The position numbers and the translations under genes are program-made. A stretch of DNA of 37,924 bases, from positions 1 through 37,924 of the forward strand of contig CALWPV010000047.1 of assembly GCA_944383515.1 (NCBI GenBank), in the 5' to 3' direction. Below, in pieces: positions 4,518-16,574 of the stretch. The notes under the pieces are model-generated. The model had not been told where the DNA came from. It saw only the letters and a list, made by a program, of their open reading frames with translations, and searched no databases. Source of the DNA: an uncultured Clostridia bacterium (lineage in GTDB: Bacteria; Bacillota; Clostridia; Lachnospirales; Bianqueaceae). Position 1 is the first letter of the stretch; each line of letters starts with the position of its first letter.

Positions 4518-6134
4518 ATGAAAAAAGCTTTTATAGGAATTGTCGCGCTACTTGCTCTCCTTTGCGCCTGCGGCGCTTCGCAAAGTAGCGAAGAACTTTC
4601 GAGCGTTGAAGAAAACAGTCAAGCTGCCAAACCACAGGAAGAGACGAAGTTTTCCTTAACTATACTGAACGAAGTAACAGAATCCGGCTCTCCCATTGAC
4701 ATTGTATTAGCGCAGCAAGAACCTCTTTTATCTGCTGAAATCTTGACGCAGGTTAGTGAGCGCGTGGCGCAAAATGGATGGGGGCCAGTGCGCTTTTCGC
4801 TTCTCAGTGGATATACCCTATTGAGTGAGGAAGTGCTAAAAGAACTTTCCAACGAATTAGGTAAAGAATGGGATGTTTTATACTTTGCAGAACCGGCGTT
4901 TGGGGGCGAGGCTTTTGACGATCTGTTCCTTGAACTGAGCGATGCGCTCAGTCAAGGAATCTTAGAACCGGTCTACGCCATGCTGCCCGAAAATGTATGG
5001 GAAGCTATGCGTATTCAGGGTGGCATATATAATCTGGCACAGGCTCCCGGCATTGTAGCCAGCGGCATTCGCGTGGCCGAACCCTTTTGGGAGACTCTTG
5101 GCGTTCCGGCTGAGGCCGTACAGAACATTGAAAAGGCAGAAGATCTTGAGCCTTACTGGGAGCAAATGTATGCGGCTGGTGGCGGGCTTCCGTTTTGGGG
5201 GCTCCGTCAGTTTTCTATTACTCGGTCAGCGGTTTCCGGGCGTATTGCCGGACGATTATTAGGGGGATTTGGCATTGACGGGAGATATCAATTATTAGGC
5301 AGTGTCATAGGCATTCATTCTGATACCGGCGTAGCCGAAAATATACTGGAAAGCGAAGTTTTTAAAAAAGAGCTGGCCTTTCAGAAAGAATGTTATGAGC
5401 AAGGGTATGCCGAGGTAACTTTTCGTATTATAGAAGAAAGAACTGGTCTCTCGCCTTCCGAACAATATGCGCTGCCCTTGCAGGACGTGAATAACCAAAG
5501 CTATCTCCAGCTGCAAGCCGTATATAGTGACAGCACCTATATTACGGCGCCACAAAATGAATATCAGCTTCCTTATCGATCTATACCTTTTCAGAGTACG
5601 GCGCGTATTATGACACAAACGCCGCAGCCGTTTACCGTTATTGCTAAACAAACACCGCAGCCCGAGGCGGTATTGGAACTTATGTGTTTTTTGCTAACAG
5701 ATGCGCAGACAAATGCATTATTGTCATTTGGTACCAATGAACCGGGGCAGTTTTTGGCGTGGGACGGTCTGATTACGACTCCCATTCTAGCGCAGGATAC
5801 GGCTTGGTGCCAAGAAAAATGGCCTCATGGCGAAGAAGACTTGTATCGTGTTATGCAACAAGCTTACGAACGGGTGCCGCTGGGAGCCGCTGTTGGCTTT
5901 GTCTGGGATCCGTCCGCGGTGGCCGGAGAAATAGAGGCGGTGCGGACAAAACTGGAGGGGCTCAGCCGGTATGACTGGGCGCTTCGTTTGGACAAAGAGG
6001 AGTTCCCCAATATCCGTCTGGAAGAAAACTATGCAGATATAGTGACAGATTTACATGAAGCGGGAATCGACGTTATTTTGAAGGATATCCAGCAAGCGTG
6101 GGAAGCATGGAAGGAAGGAGAAGATCAGGCATGA
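4518..6134 (+). CDS. Solute-binding-like lipoprotein B with DUF3502-type C-terminus
   Basis: Lipid-anchored extracellular protein of 538 residues. The start MKKAFIGIVALLALLCAC has GGAGG 7 bases upstream and lies 12 bases after lipoprotein A, so the two are co-transcribed. The lipobox is LCAC with Cys18, followed by a Ser/Glu-rich linker. The last 80 residues (GFVWDPSAVAGEIEAV ... LHEAGID ... AWEAWKEGE) fit the DUF3502 domain found at the end of some sugar or oligosaccharide ABC binding proteins. It is paralogous to the lipoprotein at 13349, with the clearest match in that C-terminus and in a PE-x-x-WE ... GGIYN-like block. Ligand unknown. The stop overlaps the next start in ATGA. Confidence 0.75.
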   Translation: MKKAFIGIVALLALLCACGASQSSEELSSVEENSQAAKPQEETKFSLTILNEVTESGSPIDIVLAQQEPLLSAEILTQVSERVAQNGWGPVRFSLLSGYTLLSEEVLKELSNELGKEWDVLYFAEPAFGGEAFDDLFLELSDALSQGILEPVYAMLPENVWEAMRIQGGIYNLAQAPGIVASGIRVAEPFWETLGVPAEAVQNIEKAEDLEPYWEQMYAAGGGLPFWGLRQFSITRSAVSGRIAGRLLGGFGIDGRYQLLGSVIGIHSDTGVAENILESEVFKKELAFQKECYEQGYAEVTFRIIEERTGLSPSEQYALPLQDVNNQSYLQLQAVYSDSTYITAPQNEYQLPYRSIPFQSTARIMTQTPQPFTVIAKQTPQPEAVLELMCFLLTDAQTNALLSFGTNEPGQFLAWDGLITTPILAQDTAWCQEKWPHGEEDLYRVMQQAYERVPLGAAVGFVWDPSAVAGEIEAVRTKLEGLSRYDWALRLDKEEFPNIRLEENYADIVTDLHEAGIDVILKDIQQAWEAWKEGEDQA

Positions 6135-8921: not shown

Positions 8922-8954
8922 AAAGGAGGGGCGTGTAGCCCCCCTTCTTTTTTT
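8922..8954 (+). terminator. Rho-independent terminator after the 7690 lipoprotein
   Basis: An AAGGAGGGGC arm pairs with GCCCCCCTT (one mismatch) around a short loop, followed by a run of T. It closes the envelope cluster just before the next promoter. Confidence 0.65.
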
Positions 8955-8967
8955 GAAAATTTAACCC

Positions 8968-8996
8968 TTGACAGCCCTGGCTAAATCTGGTATGCT
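8968..8996 (+). promoter_or_regulatory. Strong sigma-A promoter of the CydDC-like operon
   Basis: Perfect TTGACA (8968-8973), 17-base spacer, TATGCT (8991-8996). Transcription would begin near 9003, so the first operator (9006-9023) covers the start region, as expected for a repressor site. Confidence 0.75.
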
Positions 8997-9005
8997 AAGC
9001 ACAAA

Positions 9006-9023
9006 AGTTAGCGGGAGCTAACT
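9006..9023. promoter_or_regulatory. Operator 1: palindrome AGTTAGC-N4-GCTAACT
   Basis: Perfect inverted repeat with 7-base arms just after the predicted transcription start. It contains GTTAG-N6-CTAAC, the same pattern and spacing as operator 2. The half-site resembles part of DtxR/IdeR-type iron boxes but with a wider gap, so the regulator identity is only a guess. Confidence 0.6.
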
Positions 9024-9041
9024 CTATATTTTACGCCAGAA

Positions 9042-9057
9042 GTTAGAATAAACTAAC
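9042..9057. promoter_or_regulatory. Operator 2: GTTAG-N6-CTAAC
   Basis: Second inverted repeat with the same GTTAG half-sites and the same 6-base gap as operator 1, centre to centre 35 bases apart. Only the half-sites, not the spacer, are conserved, which points to protein binding rather than an RNA hairpin. It lies between the transcription start and the ribosome site of the 9075 gene. Confidence 0.55.
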
Positions 9058-9074
9058 CGAAGAAAGGACTCTCT

Positions 9075-10814
9075 ATGATCAATCGACGCCTTGTTCAAAG
9101 CGTGAGCGAAAGCAAACGTTATATAGCAGCGCAGGTAGCCTTGCAGTGGATTAGCCTGCTTGCGAATATTGCGCTTATGCTCATGGTAACTCAGTTTTTA
9201 GCGGCGCTGCTGCAAAGTCAGGGTAGCGCTGCGCTGGCCGCGCGCCTGGGGCTGGTGGCGGTAGCGGCGCTGCTCATTCGTTACCTCTGTAGCATGGCAG
9301 CAAGCCGTATGAGCTTTTTAGCGTCTCAAACCGTGAAAAAGAAAATGCGTTCTCTTCTCTATGAAAAGCTGCTCCGTTTGGGCAGCCGTTATCAGGAAAC
9401 CATGAAAACCTCGGAGATTGTACAGGTGGCGGTAGAAGGCGTTGACCAGCTGGAAACGTATTTTGGCGCGTATTTGCCGCAGTTTTTTTATGCTATGGTA
9501 GCGCCGCTAACTCTTTTTTTGTTGCTTAGTCAGGTTAACCTGCCGGTAGCGGTGGTCTTACTCATATGCGTACCGCTCATTCCGGTAGCCATTGCCCTAG
9601 TGCAAACGCTGGCCAAGAAACTGCTGGCTCGCTACTGGGGGCAGTACACAGCGCTGGGCGATACATTTTTAGAAAATTTGCAAGGGCTGACCACACTGAA
9701 AATCTACCAGTCCGATGCCTTTAAACAAAAGGAAATGGAAGAGCAGTCCGAACATTTTAGAAAAATAACCATGAAAGTGCTTTCTATGCAGCTCAATTCC
9801 ATTACCATAATGGATCTGGTCGCCTACGGCGGCGCGGCGCTGGGCGTCATTCTTTCTCTCACGCAGTTTCAGGCCGGCCATATGACGCTGAGCGGCTGCT
9901 TACTCACCATTTTGATTTCCGCCGAATTTTTTATTCCCATGCGCCAGCTGGGCAGCTTCTTTCATGTGGCCATGAACGGTATGGCGGCTAGTGAAAAAAT
10001 GTATCGTTTGCTCGACGCCGCCGAACCGGAGCGCCCGGAAGTAGCGCGGCATCCGCAGCGCTGCGACATGGTTTGCGAAGCGGTCAGTTTTTCTTATGAG
10101 GCGGAGCGGCCGCTGCTGCATGAAATTTCGGCCTCTTTTCCGCAGGGCAGTGTCACAGCGATTGTCGGTGAAAGCGGCTGCGGAAAATCGACGCTGGCCG
10201 CGCTGTTAATCGGTCAGCTCACGCCGCAGTCCGGACGCGTTACGCTGGGCGGCATCGATCTGTCCCACATAGAAGAAGCCGAGCGCTGGCAGCGCATTAC
10301 CTATGTGAGCCACCGCAGCTATTTGTTTAAAGGAACCGTGCGCGAGAATCTGCTGATGGGAAGACAAGACGCGTCAGAGGGCGAGCTGTGGCAGGCGCTG
10401 GAGAAAACCAGATTGGCCGCTTTTTTTCGTGAAAAAGAGGGGCTGGATACCCTGCTTACCGAACAAGCGGCTAATCTTTCGGGCGGTCAAAGGCAGCGGC
10501 TGGCCCTGGCGCGGGCACTGCTGCATAATAGCCCACTCTATATTTTAGACGAAGCCTCGTCAAATATCGATATAGAAAGCGAGAACGCCATTATGGAGGC
10601 GACCTATCAGCTAGCCGAGTCAAAAACCGTAATTCTCATTTCGCACCGCCTGGCTAATGTAACTAGGGCGGATCGAATCTACGTTATGGAGCAGGGACGC
10701 ATAGCCGAAAGCGGCAGCCATGAGGAGCTGTTAAGCCGCGGCGGCTGCTATGCCAAGCTGTTTCATACGCAGCAGGAGCTAGAACAATACGGAAAGGAAA
10801 AAGAAGCAGTATGA
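9075..10814 (+). CDS. CydD-like ABC exporter, permease-ATPase fusion
   Basis: Half-transporter of 579 residues: six-span membrane domain (about 1-320) then an ATPase domain. Walker A GESGCGKST at 365-373, signature LSGGQ at 468-472, Walker B LDEAS at 491-495 and switch His524, so the ATP site looks intact. The block QGLTTLKIYQSDAFKQ ... FRKITMKVLSMQL is characteristic of CydD. In E. coli CydDC has been linked to thiol export and to heme handling needed for cytochrome bd. No cytochrome bd genes occur in this window, so the substrate here is open. It overlaps the CydC-like gene by 4 bases and probably pairs with it. The start is ATG with GAAAGGA upstream. Confidence 0.85.
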   Translation: MINRRLVQSVSESKRYIAAQVALQWISLLANIALMLMVTQFLAALLQSQGSAALAARLGLVAVAALLIRYLCSMAASRMSFLASQTVKKKMRSLLYEKLLRLGSRYQETMKTSEIVQVAVEGVDQLETYFGAYLPQFFYAMVAPLTLFLLLSQVNLPVAVVLLICVPLIPVAIALVQTLAKKLLARYWGQYTALGDTFLENLQGLTTLKIYQSDAFKQKEMEEQSEHFRKITMKVLSMQLNSITIMDLVAYGGAALGVILSLTQFQAGHMTLSGCLLTILISAEFFIPMRQLGSFFHVAMNGMAASEKMYRLLDAAEPERPEVARHPQRCDMVCEAVSFSYEAERPLLHEISASFPQGSVTAIVGESGCGKSTLAALLIGQLTPQSGRVTLGGIDLSHIEEAERWQRITYVSHRSYLFKGTVRENLLMGRQDASEGELWQALEKTRLAAFFREKEGLDTLLTEQAANLSGGQRQRLALARALLHNSPLYILDEASSNIDIESENAIMEATYQLAESKTVILISHRLANVTRADRIYVMEQGRIAESGSHEELLSRGGCYAKLFHTQQELEQYGKEKEAV

Positions 10815-12469
10815 ATCGTCGAAGTCATAGTACCGTAATGCTGCGGCTCATCGGTCTGGTTAAGCCGCTCAGCGGCTATATGCTGCTGGCCGTTGTCATG
10901 GGGGTGTTAGGCCATGTATGTGCCGCGCTCATTACCATTAGCGGCGCCTATGGGGTGCTGCACCTGCTGGGGCTTTGGCCCGCTATGAGTCTTACCGTTA
11001 TTTTCGCAGGCGTGATCCTGTTTGCGCTTTTGCGCGCCGCTTTGCGCTACGGCGAGCAAACCTGCAATCACTATATTGCGTTTAAGCTGCTGGCTCTGAT
11101 CCGGGCCCATGTGTTTCGCGCGCTGCGCCGTTTGTGCCCGGCCAAGCTGGAAGGGCGGGATAAAGGCGATTTAATTGCCATGATTACAACGGATATTGAG
11201 CTGTTGGAAGTGTTTTACGCGCATACCATTTCGCCTGTGGCGATCGCGGTTATTTTTTCCGCGCTGTTTTGCCTGGGACTGGGGAGCGTGCACCCGCTGC
11301 TGGGCCTGTGGGCGCTGGCGTCCTATGGGGTGGTCGGCGTGGCGCTTCCTATGCTTACCTCGCGCCTTTCCGGAGAAGACGGCCTGCGCATGCGCAGCGG
11401 GCAAGGCGCCATGAGCAGCTTTGTGCTAGACAGTCTGCGAGGACTGCGCGAAATTTTGCAGTATGGTCAGGGAAAGGCGCGGTTAGCTGCCATGAATCAG
11501 CGGGCCGACGCGCTGGCAGAGCGCGAAGAGCGTATGAAGCGCAGAGCCGGACAAAACGGCGCAGTGGCCAGTACGGTGGTTTGGCTCTGCCATTTGGGCA
11601 TGCTGGCGGTAGCAGCGTGGCTGCAAAACCATGGCGCAGTGAGCGCGCCCCAGGCCGTTATATGCGTGGTCGCGTTTATGGGCTCCTTTGGCCCCGTGCT
11701 TGCGCTTTCGGCGCTGGGTGCTACCCTGCAAAACACGCTAGCCGCGGGAAACCGGGTGCTGGATATTCTGGACGAAGAACCGGTGGTGCAGCCGGTTACC
11801 GGGAAAGAGGAGATAGCGTTTGGCCCGCTGCGGGCCAAAGAGGTTAGTTTTGCGTATGATCGGGAGCCGGTTCTTTCTCAGGTGTCCCTTACCGTCCCAG
11901 AAGGACGCATTGTTGGCATAGCCGGAAAGAGCGGGAGCGGAAAGTCAACGCTGTTACGCTTGTTTATGCGGTTTTGGGACGTAGATCAAGGAGAGATTAC
12001 CCTGGCCGGGCGGCCGCTGCCGCAGATCAATACGAAAAATCTGCGGGCCATGCAGGCCTTTGTCACGCAGGATACAGAGCTTTTCCAGGGCAGTATTGAA
12101 AGCAATTTGCGTATTGCCAAGCTAGACGCGAGCAGGAGCGAGCTCGAGGCGGCCTGCCGGAAAGCGGCCATTCATGATTTTATTATGAGCCTTCCTAAGG
12201 GGTATGATACGCCGGTGGGCGAGCTGGGCGATACGCTGTCTGGCGGCGAACGGCAGCGCATCGGGCTGGCCCGGGCGTTTCTTTCGGGGGCTCCCTGCCT
12301 GCTGCTTGACGAGGCAACCAGCAATTTAGACAGTTTAAACGAAGCCGTCATTTTAAAGTCGCTCCGCGAAGAAGGAAATGATAAAACGGTGGTGCTCGTG
12401 TCGCACCGTCTTTCGACCCTGCGCATTGCCGGTACGGTCTACACCATGGATCAGGGGAGAATGAGCTAA
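10811..12469 (+). CDS. CydC-like ABC exporter, permease-ATPase fusion
   Basis: Partner half-transporter of 552 residues. The membrane domain includes RYGEQTCNHYIAFKLLALIR and GDLIAMITTDIELLEVFYAHTISP, a stretch typical of CydC. The ATPase domain has Walker A GKSGSGKST at 372-380, signature LSGGE at 476-480, Walker B LLLDEATSNLD and His532. Four-base overlap with the CydD-like gene and one-base overlap (TAATG) with the next gene show tight translational coupling. It likely forms a heterodimer exporting or flipping a small thiol, amino acid or heme-related molecule; the exact substrate is not visible. Confidence 0.85.
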   Translation: MNRRSHSTVMLRLIGLVKPLSGYMLLAVVMGVLGHVCAALITISGAYGVLHLLGLWPAMSLTVIFAGVILFALLRAALRYGEQTCNHYIAFKLLALIRAHVFRALRRLCPAKLEGRDKGDLIAMITTDIELLEVFYAHTISPVAIAVIFSALFCLGLGSVHPLLGLWALASYGVVGVALPMLTSRLSGEDGLRMRSGQGAMSSFVLDSLRGLREILQYGQGKARLAAMNQRADALAEREERMKRRAGQNGAVASTVVWLCHLGMLAVAAWLQNHGAVSAPQAVICVVAFMGSFGPVLALSALGATLQNTLAAGNRVLDILDEEPVVQPVTGKEEIAFGPLRAKEVSFAYDREPVLSQVSLTVPEGRIVGIAGKSGSGKSTLLRLFMRFWDVDQGEITLAGRPLPQINTKNLRAMQAFVTQDTELFQGSIESNLRIAKLDASRSELEAACRKAAIHDFIMSLPKGYDTPVGELGDTLSGGERQRIGLARAFLSGAPCLLLDEATSNLDSLNEAVILKSLREEGNDKTVVLVSHRLSTLRIAGTVYTMDQGRMS

Positions 12470-12804
12470 TGCAAAAGAAGGCGATAGAGGACAAACGCGA
12501 GCGGGAAATACGCGTGGTAACGCAAATGATTCAGATTTACTGCCGGGGCAGGCATAAAAGCCGCCGGGGCGAGCTTTGCCCGTCGTGTCAGACGCTGGCG
12601 GAGTATGCGGCGCAGCGGGTACAAAGGTGCCCTTTTATGGAAACGAAAACATTTTGTTCTAACTGCAAGGTCCATTGCTACCGGGCGGCAGAGCGCGAGC
12701 AGATCCGTGCGGTTATGCGTTACAGCGGGCCGCGCATGCTGCTCTTCCACCCGCTTATGGCCGTGCGTCATGGTATAGAAAGCCAAAAAGAAAGGAAAAA
12801 GTAA
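12469..12804 (+). CDS. YgbA_NO family (nitrous-oxide-stimulated promoter type) cysteine-rich protein
   Basis: Small cytoplasmic protein of 111 residues, one base overlapping the CydC-like stop. It has the family layout: an N-terminal ReREIRVV ... MI-x-IYCRG helix, then CPSCQ, a single RCPF, and CSNCKVHCY, followed by a helix with RAVMRYSGPRML and HPLMAVRH. The conserved cysteines suggest binding of iron, zinc or an iron-sulphur centre. E. coli YgbA is nitric-oxide inducible and has been linked to recovery from nitrosative stress. Its place in an operon with a CydDC-like exporter supports a redox, nitrosative-stress or metal-related role, which is inference. Confidence 0.82.
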   Translation: MQKKAIEDKREREIRVVTQMIQIYCRGRHKSRRGELCPSCQTLAEYAAQRVQRCPFMETKTFCSNCKVHCYRAAEREQIRAVMRYSGPRMLLFHPLMAVRHGIESQKERKK

Positions 12805-12806
12805 TC

Positions 12807-13187
12807 ATGAAACTGAAAAAAATGGTTTATTTAGTACTGGGCTGCCTGGGCCTTGCGCTGGGCGCGGTAGGCGCGGCTGTGCCGCTACTTCCGGCGTTTC
12901 CGTTTTTAATGTTAGCCGCGTTTTGCTTCGCGAAAAGTTCGGAGCGGCTGCACACGTGGTTTATTGGCACCAAGCTGTACCGAAATAATTTAGAAAGTTT
13001 TGTCAAAGGACAGGGCATGACCTGGAAAACAAAAATACGCATTATGGTGCTTGTGACGCTGACCATGAGCATTGGGTTTATTATGATGCACCAGGTGGTG
13101 GTCGGACGCATTGTTTTAGCCTGCGTTTGGGTATTTCATGTTTTATATTTTTGCTTTGGCATTAAGACAAAAGCAAAAACGACTTGA
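12807..13187 (+). CDS. YbaN family (DUF454) inner-membrane protein
   Basis: Membrane protein of 126 residues. The ATG at 12807 (MKLKKMVYLVLGCLG) follows AAAGGAAAAAG and lies 2 bases after the YgbA-like stop; a longer open frame upstream overlaps that gene and is not supported. The motif PLLPAFPFLMLAAFCFAKSS at residues 26-45 is the DUF454 hallmark, followed by the HTWFIGTKLYRNNL segment and two more hydrophobic stretches (about 77-95 and 96-118). Function unknown; in E. coli it is annotated only as an inner-membrane protein. Last gene of the operon with the CydDC-like exporter. Confidence 0.82.
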   Translation: MKLKKMVYLVLGCLGLALGAVGAAVPLLPAFPFLMLAAFCFAKSSERLHTWFIGTKLYRNNLESFVKGQGMTWKTKIRIMVLVTLTMSIGFIMMHQVVVGRIVLACVWVFHVLYFCFGIKTKAKTT

Positions 13188-13348: not shown

Positions 13349-14974
13349 ATGAAAAAAGGAAAAAGAGCTATAGCATTATGTTTTATTTTCGTTTTTCTTC
13401 TTTCCTCTTGTTATACTAAGGAATGGGCGGGGGAAGACGCTGGGCATTCCTCTGCGTTAGATCAATCGAGTGACTCACAGGTGCCCTCTGGCACGGAAAC
13501 CATAACTCCAGTCGTAGAGGACGGCCTAGCTACATGGCACTTTACGCCTCCTTCCGACCTTTCTTACCTTACAGTTGGAGTTGTGGTGCCACAGGATATG
13601 GCGTCTATGGTGTCTAACTGGCAAACTACTTGGGCAGAGCTTAATACTTATTTGGCCGAGCAGCAGGCAGGGTATCAAATAGAGCTTATTGTGAAAGGCG
13701 TTTTGAGCGAAAAAGATCCGGCACTGGAAAAGAAGGCTGTGCAACAGTGTTTGGCGGAGAACATAGCTATTCTTACCGGTTCTTTTTCAGATTCTTCTTC
13801 GCTGGATATGGAATGGTTTGTAGATCTTGGACAGGCACCATATTGTCAGGCGGTGGCGCCGGTTCTGGAATTATATCCTGACAAGTACTGGGAATATGTA
13901 GAAAAACAATGGGGCGGCCTCTACAGTATTTCTAATGAAATCACTTGGCACGGTAATGTTAGCTTTCAAATGCTGATAGACCATGAAGCGCTAGACTCTT
14001 GGGGGCTAGAGTGGGAAGGCGTAAAAGCAATAGGGTATACCTGGGACGAGTGGGAGCAAATTTTTACCGGCTGGCAGGAGGCAATGGGAGAAACCGCGCC
14101 AGTTTTAGCGATAGATGAAACGACCCTGAATTCCTTTTTACAGTATTTGGCTCCTGAAACAGAGTGTCAGCTGATCGCGCCGGGCGTAGGGATTCATTTA
14201 GAAACGGGAGAAATAGAGAAAGTTTTAACTATGCCCGCCGTGCAGGCACGCATACAAAGATATCAAAACTGGATGGATAGAGGCATGGTGGAAGAAGTGC
14301 CGAAAAATGCTCCAATCAGTGCTTTTGGACGGGGAAGCGGTATGGGCGCGTATTGTATAGACATATTAGCAGAAAACAGCCCAATAGAAGTCTGGGAGTA
14401 TGAGGTGGCAGAGCATAAAGTGGTTTATTACCCTGCTAATTTAGAGGCGCTGGGAAAAAGAGTTTGCTTTACCGGGGTTGTAGATCAAAGCGAGAACAGA
14501 GAACTGGCGCTGGAGTTTTTGCAATATATAGGACAGTCTAAGACGCTGCGCAGTATTATGAATCGATTGGCGGATTTCTTTTTGGCCCCTTTATCGATAA
14601 TGGAATTAAATGACGAAACGGCAGCGGAAGAGAACATGCGGCTTTATACTGCACAAGGCGAGTCTCTCTCTTATGTAGAAGCTTTCGGGCAAATTTACGA
14701 AAAGGCAGTTATCCCTTCTACAGCAGGGTTTTACTTTGACCCAGGCCCCGTGCGTGAAGAAATAGAAGCGATTTGGCAAGTGTATAACAGCAGTCCGGTT
14801 AAACGGGCAGCAGGGCGAGGCATTTCCTTTAATAATGCGACTTTTACCGAAGACCTGATTCAGCTGGAAAAAGATATGGAGGCCGCCGGTTTAAATGAAG
14901 TAGTGGAAGAAGCGCAGCGGCAGTTACAGGTTTGGAAGGACGAGCAGAGGGAGGAAAAAAATGAAGCGTCATAA
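13349..14974 (+). CDS. Solute-binding-like lipoprotein B' with DUF3502-type C-terminus
   Basis: Lipid-anchored protein of 541 residues. I chose MKKGKRAIALCFIFVFLLSSC at 13349 because it has GGAGG 6 bases upstream and a proper lipoprotein signal with lipobox LSSC (Cys21); the frame is open 55 codons earlier without a ribosome site. The last 80 residues (FYFDPGPVREEIEAI ... MEAAGLNEVVEEAQRQL) match the DUF3502-type end also seen in lipoprotein B (4518). Middle blocks such as YPDKYWEYVEKQWGGLYSI also align with B. It is coupled to A' (14961) by a 14-base overlap. No permease is nearby. The ligand is unknown. Confidence 0.75.
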   Translation: MKKGKRAIALCFIFVFLLSSCYTKEWAGEDAGHSSALDQSSDSQVPSGTETITPVVEDGLATWHFTPPSDLSYLTVGVVVPQDMASMVSNWQTTWAELNTYLAEQQAGYQIELIVKGVLSEKDPALEKKAVQQCLAENIAILTGSFSDSSSLDMEWFVDLGQAPYCQAVAPVLELYPDKYWEYVEKQWGGLYSISNEITWHGNVSFQMLIDHEALDSWGLEWEGVKAIGYTWDEWEQIFTGWQEAMGETAPVLAIDETTLNSFLQYLAPETECQLIAPGVGIHLETGEIEKVLTMPAVQARIQRYQNWMDRGMVEEVPKNAPISAFGRGSGMGAYCIDILAENSPIEVWEYEVAEHKVVYYPANLEALGKRVCFTGVVDQSENRELALEFLQYIGQSKTLRSIMNRLADFFLAPLSIMELNDETAAEENMRLYTAQGESLSYVEAFGQIYEKAVIPSTAGFYFDPGPVREEIEAIWQVYNSSPVKRAAGRGISFNNATFTEDLIQLEKDMEAAGLNEVVEEAQRQLQVWKDEQREEKNEAS

Positions 14975-16574
14975 ACAAAAACTGTGGCCGGTCCGGTATC
15001 GTATGCTCAGCTTAATATTTATATTAGCGCTGCTTGCCAGCGGCTGCGCACAGATTACGCAGCCGGCAGAGACTGCAATAGAGCAGGAAAAGCAGGAAGA
15101 AGCGCAGGGCCCTTTGCAGGTGTATCTCATGGGACATGGCAATTATATTTCAAGTGAAGATAAAGAGTGGGAAGAATATTCACTTCCTGTTACCATTGGC
15201 CTAGAAACGACATGGTATATGCCAGGCTATGCACAGGGCAATCCTTTATATCAAGCGCTGCTGGATTATGCCGATGAAACGGAAACAGAGATTCAGGTCA
15301 CTTTTTTTGACAATTCTACTGACCTGATGCAGCAAGTGCAGGAAAACACGGCCCAAGGCGAGGGGCCCGATCTGGCGCTTATTGTTAAACAGTTTAGCGC
15401 TAACGCGCAAAACAGCTGGTGGAAACTGCTGCAAGACGGAACCTTTGAGAATCTGAGTCCGTATTTGAATCTTGATGTGAATCGGTATTATGAGCCGGTA
15501 CTGCGCAGTGGGCAGTATCAGGAGAAGCAATATCTGGTTCCCCTTCTGTTCGATCTTAGCGGATTTGTTACCTCGGAAGAGTTTTTGCAGGAAGTAGGCC
15601 AGGCGATACCTACGGAACAGGCCAGCTATGAAGAAATAGTGAATCTATTTCGCGAGACCTGTATGGCGCTGCAACAAAATTCTTCGAAACTAGCGCTGTA
15701 TGAAGGAACAACCATTTGGGAGCATTACATTATGAATGCGCTTTTGGCGGCGGCTGGTTACGGTAATTTACAGGAAAGCAAGCCACTTGCAGAAGAAACC
15801 GTGCAGCAGATTTTAAGCATGATGCGCGAGTTTTTAGTGCAAAATTGGCAGAAAATACCTGGCTGTATAGAGAATACAGCAAAAGAAAATCGCAATAAGG
15901 GGAACGCCTTGTATGATCGTTTTAATTTTGGCCCTCTATATGCGGAAGACCCGGAGTATAAACGGGAAATGCTGGGAATTATGTTAGACGGCGGATTTGG
16001 CGGTCATTTAGCTTGCAGCAGCCTCATAATGCAGGCTTATGCGCTGCAGACCTATTATGGCGAAATGGGTGAGAATGTCTTGGTTCGAGGCATTCCTATG
16101 GCTGGCAGCCCAGGCGAGTATACGGCTAATGTAACCGTTTTAGGCTTTTCCCCCGCGGGCTGCGATCAGGTGGAAGGAGCGGCAGCGTGTTTACAGTATT
16201 TGCTAGATTATGATTATCCGCCGGAGATTGGCATTTCTGTCAGTCGCGAGAGGGTAGAAGAGGATCTGGCGTTTTTACAAAATGCTGCCACAGAGCTATA
16301 TATTCAGCCGCAATATGATCCAATGGCTGACAAAGCCATTCAGCAAGAGCTTTTTAACCAAAGCAAGGTTATATTTAACCCCATGCAGGAGGAGGTGGCG
16401 CAAACGCTGCAGCAGTTGTTAGACCATATAGGCGGCGCATCGCTTCCGTATGGGAAGGTTATGAGCGAGGGCCAGGTGATCTTAGAAGCCTATTGGGATG
16501 GCGAGCAGAGCGCGCAGGAGGCAGCCCGGTCGATCTGCTCTATGCTGAATCAATTTTGGGGCGTGTCAGCGTAG
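14961..16574 (+). CDS. Solute-binding-like lipoprotein A' (paralog of the 2931 lipoprotein)
   Basis: Lipid-anchored protein of 537 residues. A basic N-terminus (MKRHKQKLWPVRYR) precedes a hydrophobic span and lipobox ASGC (Cys29), then a Gln/Glu-rich linker. The start has GGGAGG about 7 bases upstream, inside the end of B'. It aligns over its whole length with lipoprotein A: PDLALI, YYEPVLRSG, QEKQYLVPLLFD, TAKENRN, EYTANVTVLG, GISVSRERVEEDL and a common C-terminal block LLDHIGGASLP. This supports duplication of an ancestral A/B pair. It probably binds a solute outside the cell; no transport partner is encoded beside it. Confidence 0.75.
   Translation: MKRHKQKLWPVRYRMLSLIFILALLASGCAQITQPAETAIEQEKQEEAQGPLQVYLMGHGNYISSEDKEWEEYSLPVTIGLETTWYMPGYAQGNPLYQALLDYADETETEIQVTFFDNSTDLMQQVQENTAQGEGPDLALIVKQFSANAQNSWWKLLQDGTFENLSPYLNLDVNRYYEPVLRSGQYQEKQYLVPLLFDLSGFVTSEEFLQEVGQAIPTEQASYEEIVNLFRETCMALQQNSSKLALYEGTTIWEHYIMNALLAAAGYGNLQESKPLAEETVQQILSMMREFLVQNWQKIPGCIENTAKENRNKGNALYDRFNFGPLYAEDPEYKREMLGIMLDGGFGGHLACSSLIMQAYALQTYYGEMGENVLVRGIPMAGSPGEYTANVTVLGFSPAGCDQVEGAAACLQYLLDYDYPPEIGISVSRERVEEDLAFLQNAATELYIQPQYDPMADKAIQQELFNQSKVIFNPMQEEVAQTLQQLLDHIGGASLPYGKVMSEGQVILEAYWDGEQSAQEAARSICSMLNQFWGVSA

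Follow-up and report, generated by a model that had tools for sequence, protein, structure and literature searches.

In the promoter of a cydD-like operon of an uncultured Clostridia bacterium, two copies of the inverted repeat GTTAG-N6-CTAAC lie close behind the −10 element. We predict, with a probability of roughly 0.85, that these twin repeats are single-dimer-type operators of an iron-sensing repressor of the DtxR family. The same site recurs beside iron genes in this genome and upstream of cydD in related genomes, where it is often paired, and in relatives it adjoins genes for DtxR-family proteins. We consider the pair to be real and conserved, a predicted operator pair of an iron regulon.

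Twin repeats behind a near-consensus promoter

Within the window, i.e., the whole 37,924-nucleotide stretch of DNA that was analyzed, GTTAG-N6-CTAAC matches exactly at positions 9007 to 9022 (operator 1, GTTAGCGGGAGCTAAC) and 9042 to 9057 (operator 2, GTTAGAATAAACTAAC), without any third match. The operators, neither of which is assigned a strand, start 35 bp apart and have 19 bases between them. Their half-sites and 6-base gap are identical and their central spacers (CGGGAG and AATAAA) are unlike, just as the first-pass annotation of this DNA had described them; the inverted repeat of operator 1 reaches from 9006 to 9023. Only 0.03 exact matches are expected in the window, and two were reached in 0 of 100 dinucleotide shuffles of the whole window. 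On the basis of these shuffles, the reversed-pattern control, and the next-best palindromes in cydD promoters (both described below), a chance origin of the twin sites was rejected.

The near-consensus promoter named in the first-pass annotation was recovered on the plus strand at 8968 to 8996 by a pattern scan, with 10 of 12 consensus matches: a −35 element, TTGACA (8968 to 8973), a 17-bp spacer with an extended TG, and a −10 element, TATGCT (8991 to 8996). As a terminator-like hairpin with a T run on the same strand (8928 to 8942; pattern scan) closes the previous gene at its 3′ end, the operon appears to have its first promoter here. A likely ribosome-binding site, AAAGGA, was read from the sequence at 9063 to 9068 (plus strand), before cydD. 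Operator 1 had been thought to cover the predicted transcription start. It begins 10 bases past the −10 hexamer and thus spans roughly +3 to +18, so that it roughly overlaps the start but is not centered on it. An overlap with the start site and/or the −10 element is also described for repressing IdeR boxes in the portion of PMC10317159 available to us; the overlap seen here refers to predicted promoters.

The half-site had been likened to the DtxR/IdeR iron box, with the reservation that its wider spacing might point to a different regulator. The likeness holds, but the reservation does not. In the IdeR-DNA structures, as presented in the accessible part of PMC8464063, the dimers contact repeats 1 and 3 and repeats 2 and 4 of TTAGGTTAGSCTAACCTAA. 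TTAG-N6-CTAA is therefore contacted by one IdeR dimer, and the spacing of the window sites is the within-one-dimer spacing of DtxR/IdeR and not a wider one. The same part of that source gives an IdeR half binding site from Saccharopolyspora erythraea with a 14-bp consensus, TTAGGNNNNCCTAA, that binds a single dimer with an apparent KD of 78 nM and is described, for the nuo promoter, as the first example. TTAGGNNNNCCTAA contains TTAG-N6-CTAA, a geometry found at both window sites, for each of which one dimer is likewise predicted.

The sites also resemble the actinobacterial iron box (the 19-bp TTAGGTTAGSCTAACCTAA; PMC10317159 and PMC8464063, as far as their accessible text goes) in having TTAG and CTAA at one-dimer spacing, a start-proximal place, downstream iron-uptake genes, and a DtxR-family protein in the genome. 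The arrangement of the units is different. Whereas the classical 19-bp box amounts to two TTAG-N6-CTAA sites offset by 5 bp, the two single-dimer sites studied here are separate and lie 35 bp apart. The full 19-bp double-dimer palindrome had no match in the window at up to three mismatches, and its best fit in the cydD promoter had five; across six promoters of this genome, the best fits had five to seven mismatches, and none of them showed another site at a 5-bp offset. The inner base departs from the IdeR half-repeat TTAGG as well, with C or A instead of G after TTAG in the window sites. Compared with the S. erythraea half site, the repeat appears here as the regular building block of an iron regulon and is often paired, with certain distances preferred; in the genomes that carry it, the DtxR protein is short and lacks the SH3-like domain.

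Recurrence beside iron genes and upstream of cydD

We scanned the bacterium's own genome (2.34 Mb; 98% complete) for the exact pattern, using the reversed pattern as a control, and found six sites compared with one for the control. The six are spread over five promoters. Besides the two in the cydDC operon (9007 to 9022 and 9042 to 9057), single sites lie before feoA-feoA-feoB (contig C62), before the gene for a FeoB-associated Cys-rich protein (FeoB_associated, PF12669; C97), before DUF3793 and flavodoxin genes (C19), and before DUF6110 and P-type ATPase genes (C23; L002:1501-1516). The first-pass annotation had proposed a genome-wide scan near feo and redox genes, and the copies before the feo and flavodoxin genes are of this kind; their recurrence in promoters beside iron genes supports its view of the repeats as predicted operators of a dimeric repressor. 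As judged by eye, the first exact site in all five promoters lies 7 to 10 bases past a −10-like hexamer, with a −35-like hexamer 17 bp ahead of the latter. The feoA-feoA-feoB promoter is also a twin, with ATTAG-N6-CTAAC 34 bp from the exact site. At the C23 site, a gene that looks MgtC-like by eye is divergent on the opposite side.

Allowing one mismatch in an 18-base pattern added seven places in this genome. Two of these belong to a second feoAB operon (C87; L015:1501-1577), one upstream of the −35 element and one at the start, and at 59 bp apart they have a layout unlike that of the 34- to 35-bp pairs. One palindrome, GGTAAGTCATGACTAACC (C62:14481-14498; L013:1501-1518), overlaps the start codon of a gene for a 124-amino-acid winged-helix protein behind feoB, and another site, on C113, overlaps the −10 element of an AstE/AspA-like gene. 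The places on C123 and C126 are within genes and were taken as chance. At two mismatches, the own-genome search returned noise (91 places versus 200 for the control).

For the comparison of cydD promoters, we took the best 80 of 346 cydD relatives (55 to 65% identity; named genomes), which come from Clostridia and some Coriobacteriia. Within 300 bp upstream of cydD, an exact site was present in 28 of these 80 loci and a site with at most one mismatch was present in 38, while the next-best 5-mer-N6 palindrome reached 2 of 80. GTTAG and CTAAC separated by other gaps (0 to 14) occurred in no locus, apart from a single one with a gap of 5. Copies are thus found both in the genome and in orthologous promoters, the two places where their absence had been named as counting against the operators. 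When the region was extended to 1,300 bp, the counts rose to 37 exact and 52 with at most one mismatch; the other 28 of the 80 loci had no site with at most one mismatch within that distance, a few of them at a contig end. A promoter was visible in 47 of the 52 site-bearing loci, and in 33 of the 47 the nearest site starts 7 to 9 bases past the −10 element. Several actinobacterial cydD promoters, from Olsenella and Thermophilibacter (L087, L090, L092, L095, L099, and L101), carry a related element of a different form, GTTTAC-N5-CTAAC, some 50 bp ahead of cydD, and several in this group also have, about 31 bp upstream, a second site that is weak.

Across 99 related sites, TTAG and CTAA are nearly fixed, in part as a consequence of pattern selection, and the center is nearly free. 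The outer positions hold G in 92 sites on one side and C (67 sites) or T (29 sites) on the other. The base after TTAG is C in 52 sites, T in 25, A in 18, and G in 3, with G in 50 at the mirrored position. The operator core is TTAG-N6-CTAA with a preferred outer G and C. This pattern bears on the alternative that the repeats work as RNA hairpins, in an attenuator or a 5′ leader structure, rather than as DNA operators. While operator 1 was marked as terminator-like by the pattern scan, six nearly free central bases between nearly fixed TTAG and CTAA argue against a hairpin, as do loci in which the sites lie over the −10 element or upstream of the promoter and are hence untranscribed. Rfam gave no match in the window. 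We rejected the hairpin reading on these three grounds and regard it as extremely unlikely.

Pairing was evaluated in 44 neighboring pairs of sites at most 130 bp apart, of which 41 were nonredundant. Among the 41, spacings of 33 to 35 bp occurred in 12 pairs, 43 to 46 bp in 10, and 20 to 22 bp in 6; as these ranges were chosen after inspection of the data and the loci are related, P values for the spacing are not relied on.

The genes beside the exact sites were tallied as 126 nonredundant open reading frames (ORFs) at cydD, DtxR, and same-order loci, with cydD itself left out and ORFs on both sides of the palindrome taken, so that many entries in the tally are no genes at all or genes other than the regulated one. 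They included FeoA (13 ORFs), FeoB (FeoB_N; 7), DUF3793 (6), flavodoxin (2), heme-binding Shp (1), and Fe/Mn superoxide dismutase (1), as well as DtxR (11), a count that is biased since some loci were picked for DtxR. Iron-related genes downstream are a trait that the sites share with DtxR/IdeR operators.

A DtxR-family candidate for the repressor

The genome encodes exactly one protein that matches PF02742 (137 amino acids, 48.9 bits, contig C60), which also matches PF01325. Among proteins of solved structure, it matches chains of MntR, SloR, DtxR, ScaR, and IdeR, the closest being the MntR chain 2h09. A candidate cognate DtxR-family protein is thus available, and we think it likely, judging from the sequence comparisons below, that the C60 protein is itself the regulator. 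PF01325 also has a match in a MarR-like ORF of this genome (C28; L104) that precedes an ABC transporter.

Of 245 genomes sampled across the class, 165 had the exact site and 186 had a PF02742 protein. The 186 genomes with a DtxR protein held 580 sites versus 360 for the control, compared with 43 versus 95 in the 59 genomes without one (P = 1.6 × 10−5, by a statistic that ignores relatedness). For all 245 genomes together, the difference was not significant (623 sites versus 455; P = 0.18 by the Wilcoxon test), and the excess of sites is concentrated in a subset of the class genomes. The 11 genomes of the bacterium's own order had 86 sites versus 15 for the control.

Site positions were listed for 19 genomes, and in 14 of them (G222, G086, G112, G180, G242, G201, G059, G043, G071, G212, G191, G147, G072, and G148) a PF02742 match is at most 0.5 kb away from an exact site. 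In three of the 19 (G099, G034, and G042), the DtxR match is not within this distance, and for two (G025 and G159), its place is not among the matches listed. At 11 of these 14 loci, an exact site precedes the DtxR gene, and 9 of the 14 carry a pair 33 to 35 bp apart, at a promoter other than that of cydD. In a less selective set, made up of the 30 strongest PF02742 loci, seven had the exact site and four had the next-best palindrome. The site-adjacent DtxR proteins, which are short and come from distant Clostridia, are in most loci close to the C60 protein, their one ortholog in this genome. They have the motif (D/E)(A/S)C(R/K)IEH in common with it and resemble it in the recognition helix; more distant paralogs occur at L146, L147, L107, L121, and L129. 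The adjacency of DtxR-family genes and sites in related genomes strengthens the DtxR assignment. Unlike several relatives, the C60 gene has no site in its own 3.2-kb locus.

The clade has the two-domain size of MntR-type short DtxR proteins (about 125 to 137 amino acids) but differs from them in the Cys of the (D/E)(A/S)C(R/K)IEH motif, where Bacillus subtilis MntR has Glu. Its gene company also points to iron (feo) and not to manganese.

An alternative candidate for the repressor is the winged-helix protein whose gene comes directly after feoB on C62; it resembles the DtxR N-terminal domain only. Its weak PF01325 match (24.7 bits versus a 26-bit cutoff), an S-K-P-S-V helix as in the C60 protein, its place behind feoB, and the one-mismatch palindrome over its start codon all fit such a role. 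Yet it lacks a recognizable metal-binding or dimerization domain, and in relatives it is the two-domain DtxR type that adjoins the sites, which makes this protein an improbable owner of the operators. It could be a private, autoregulated accessory regulator of Feo.

Another candidate is the one full-length Fur-family protein of the genome (C90). The classical Fur box is a 7-1-7 inverted repeat, and against this consensus six of the seven site-bearing regions had four or five mismatches and one (L002) had two. We rejected Fur box identity on these counts. Fur governs iron genes in Clostridioides difficile, according to the accessible part of PMC6311696, but the mismatches and the DtxR genes, which adjoin the sites, make ownership by Fur very improbable in this genome.

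With a DtxR-family repressor, regulation of the operon could proceed as follows. With abundant Fe2+, one dimer of the repressor, which is most likely the two-domain DtxR protein of C60, would sit on operator 1, just after the −10 element, and a second on operator 2, in the leader, and transcription of cydDC-ygbA-DUF454 would be blocked. When iron is scarce, the dimers would leave, and the operon would be expressed together with feoAB, flavodoxin, and the other site-bearing iron genes.

The operon and a possible role of CydDC in iron metabolism

All four genes of the operon are on the plus strand. The first two had been called CydDC-like, and their best NCBIfam matches agree, each under its cutoff: CydD for the ABC transporter subunit at 9075 to 10814 (TIGR02857; 413 bits versus 435) and CydC, just under the cutoff, for that at 10811 to 12469 (TIGR02868; 325 bits versus 329). 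The third gene (12469 to 12804) encodes a YgbA_NO family protein (PF11756; E = 1 × 10−43), with NCBIfam NF007714 above its cutoff, and the fourth (12807 to 13187) encodes a protein that matches the DUF454 profile (PF04304). The family membership of the third gene is the one link to the NO stress that the first-pass annotation had brought up. This company is recurrent, with YgbA in 50 and DUF454 in 53 of the 80 related loci (the best 80 of 346 relatives). At five loci (L026, L027, L031, L033, and L078), DUF454 is placed ahead of cydD. After the operon, at 13349 to 16574, are two lipoprotein-like genes resembling those for solute-binding proteins, one with DUF3502; by eye, they resemble the lipoprotein gene at 4518 to 6134 and are possible duplicates.

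A profile search for CydA (PF01654) found none in this 98%-complete genome, and CydA was present in 1 of the 245 class genomes and in none of the 12 with YgbA. With no CydA detectable in its own genome, the CydDC of this operon probably does not serve cytochrome bd. Both thiol export and heme transport have been ascribed to CydDC of E. coli (PMC4785604 and PMC10374445, in their accessible parts), and an iron-regulated CydDC would fit a role in heme, iron, or thiol balance.

In the open-access literature, outside which most subscription papers fall, we found no description of GTTAG-N6-CTAAC in Clostridia and no work that deals directly with a clostridial DtxR regulon. DtxR, promoter, binding site, and palindrome gave no hit in a term search of the main text of a paper on iron in Faecalibacterium (PMC10781979). 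The occurrence of half sites in other species and their role were left for future study in the IdeR papers (PMC10317159 and PMC8464063, in the sections accessible). The cydD promoter and its relatives answer the question of occurrence at the level of sequence and make that of the role testable.

More tentatively, many Clostridia may use a short, SH3-less DtxR iron sensor with single-dimer half sites paired at about 21, 34, or 45 bp, on which two nonoverlapping dimers would act together, and their regulon may include cydDC-ygbA-DUF454 as an iron starvation operon independent of cytochrome bd. For the iron regulon of many Clostridia, the repeat provides a predicted operator that is simple and easy to search for. 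By this prediction, the CydDC-YgbA-DUF454 operon belongs to that regulon in organisms that lack detectable cytochrome bd. If the reading of an SH3-less DtxR half-site regulon is true, it would point to an iron, heme, or thiol role for CydDC.
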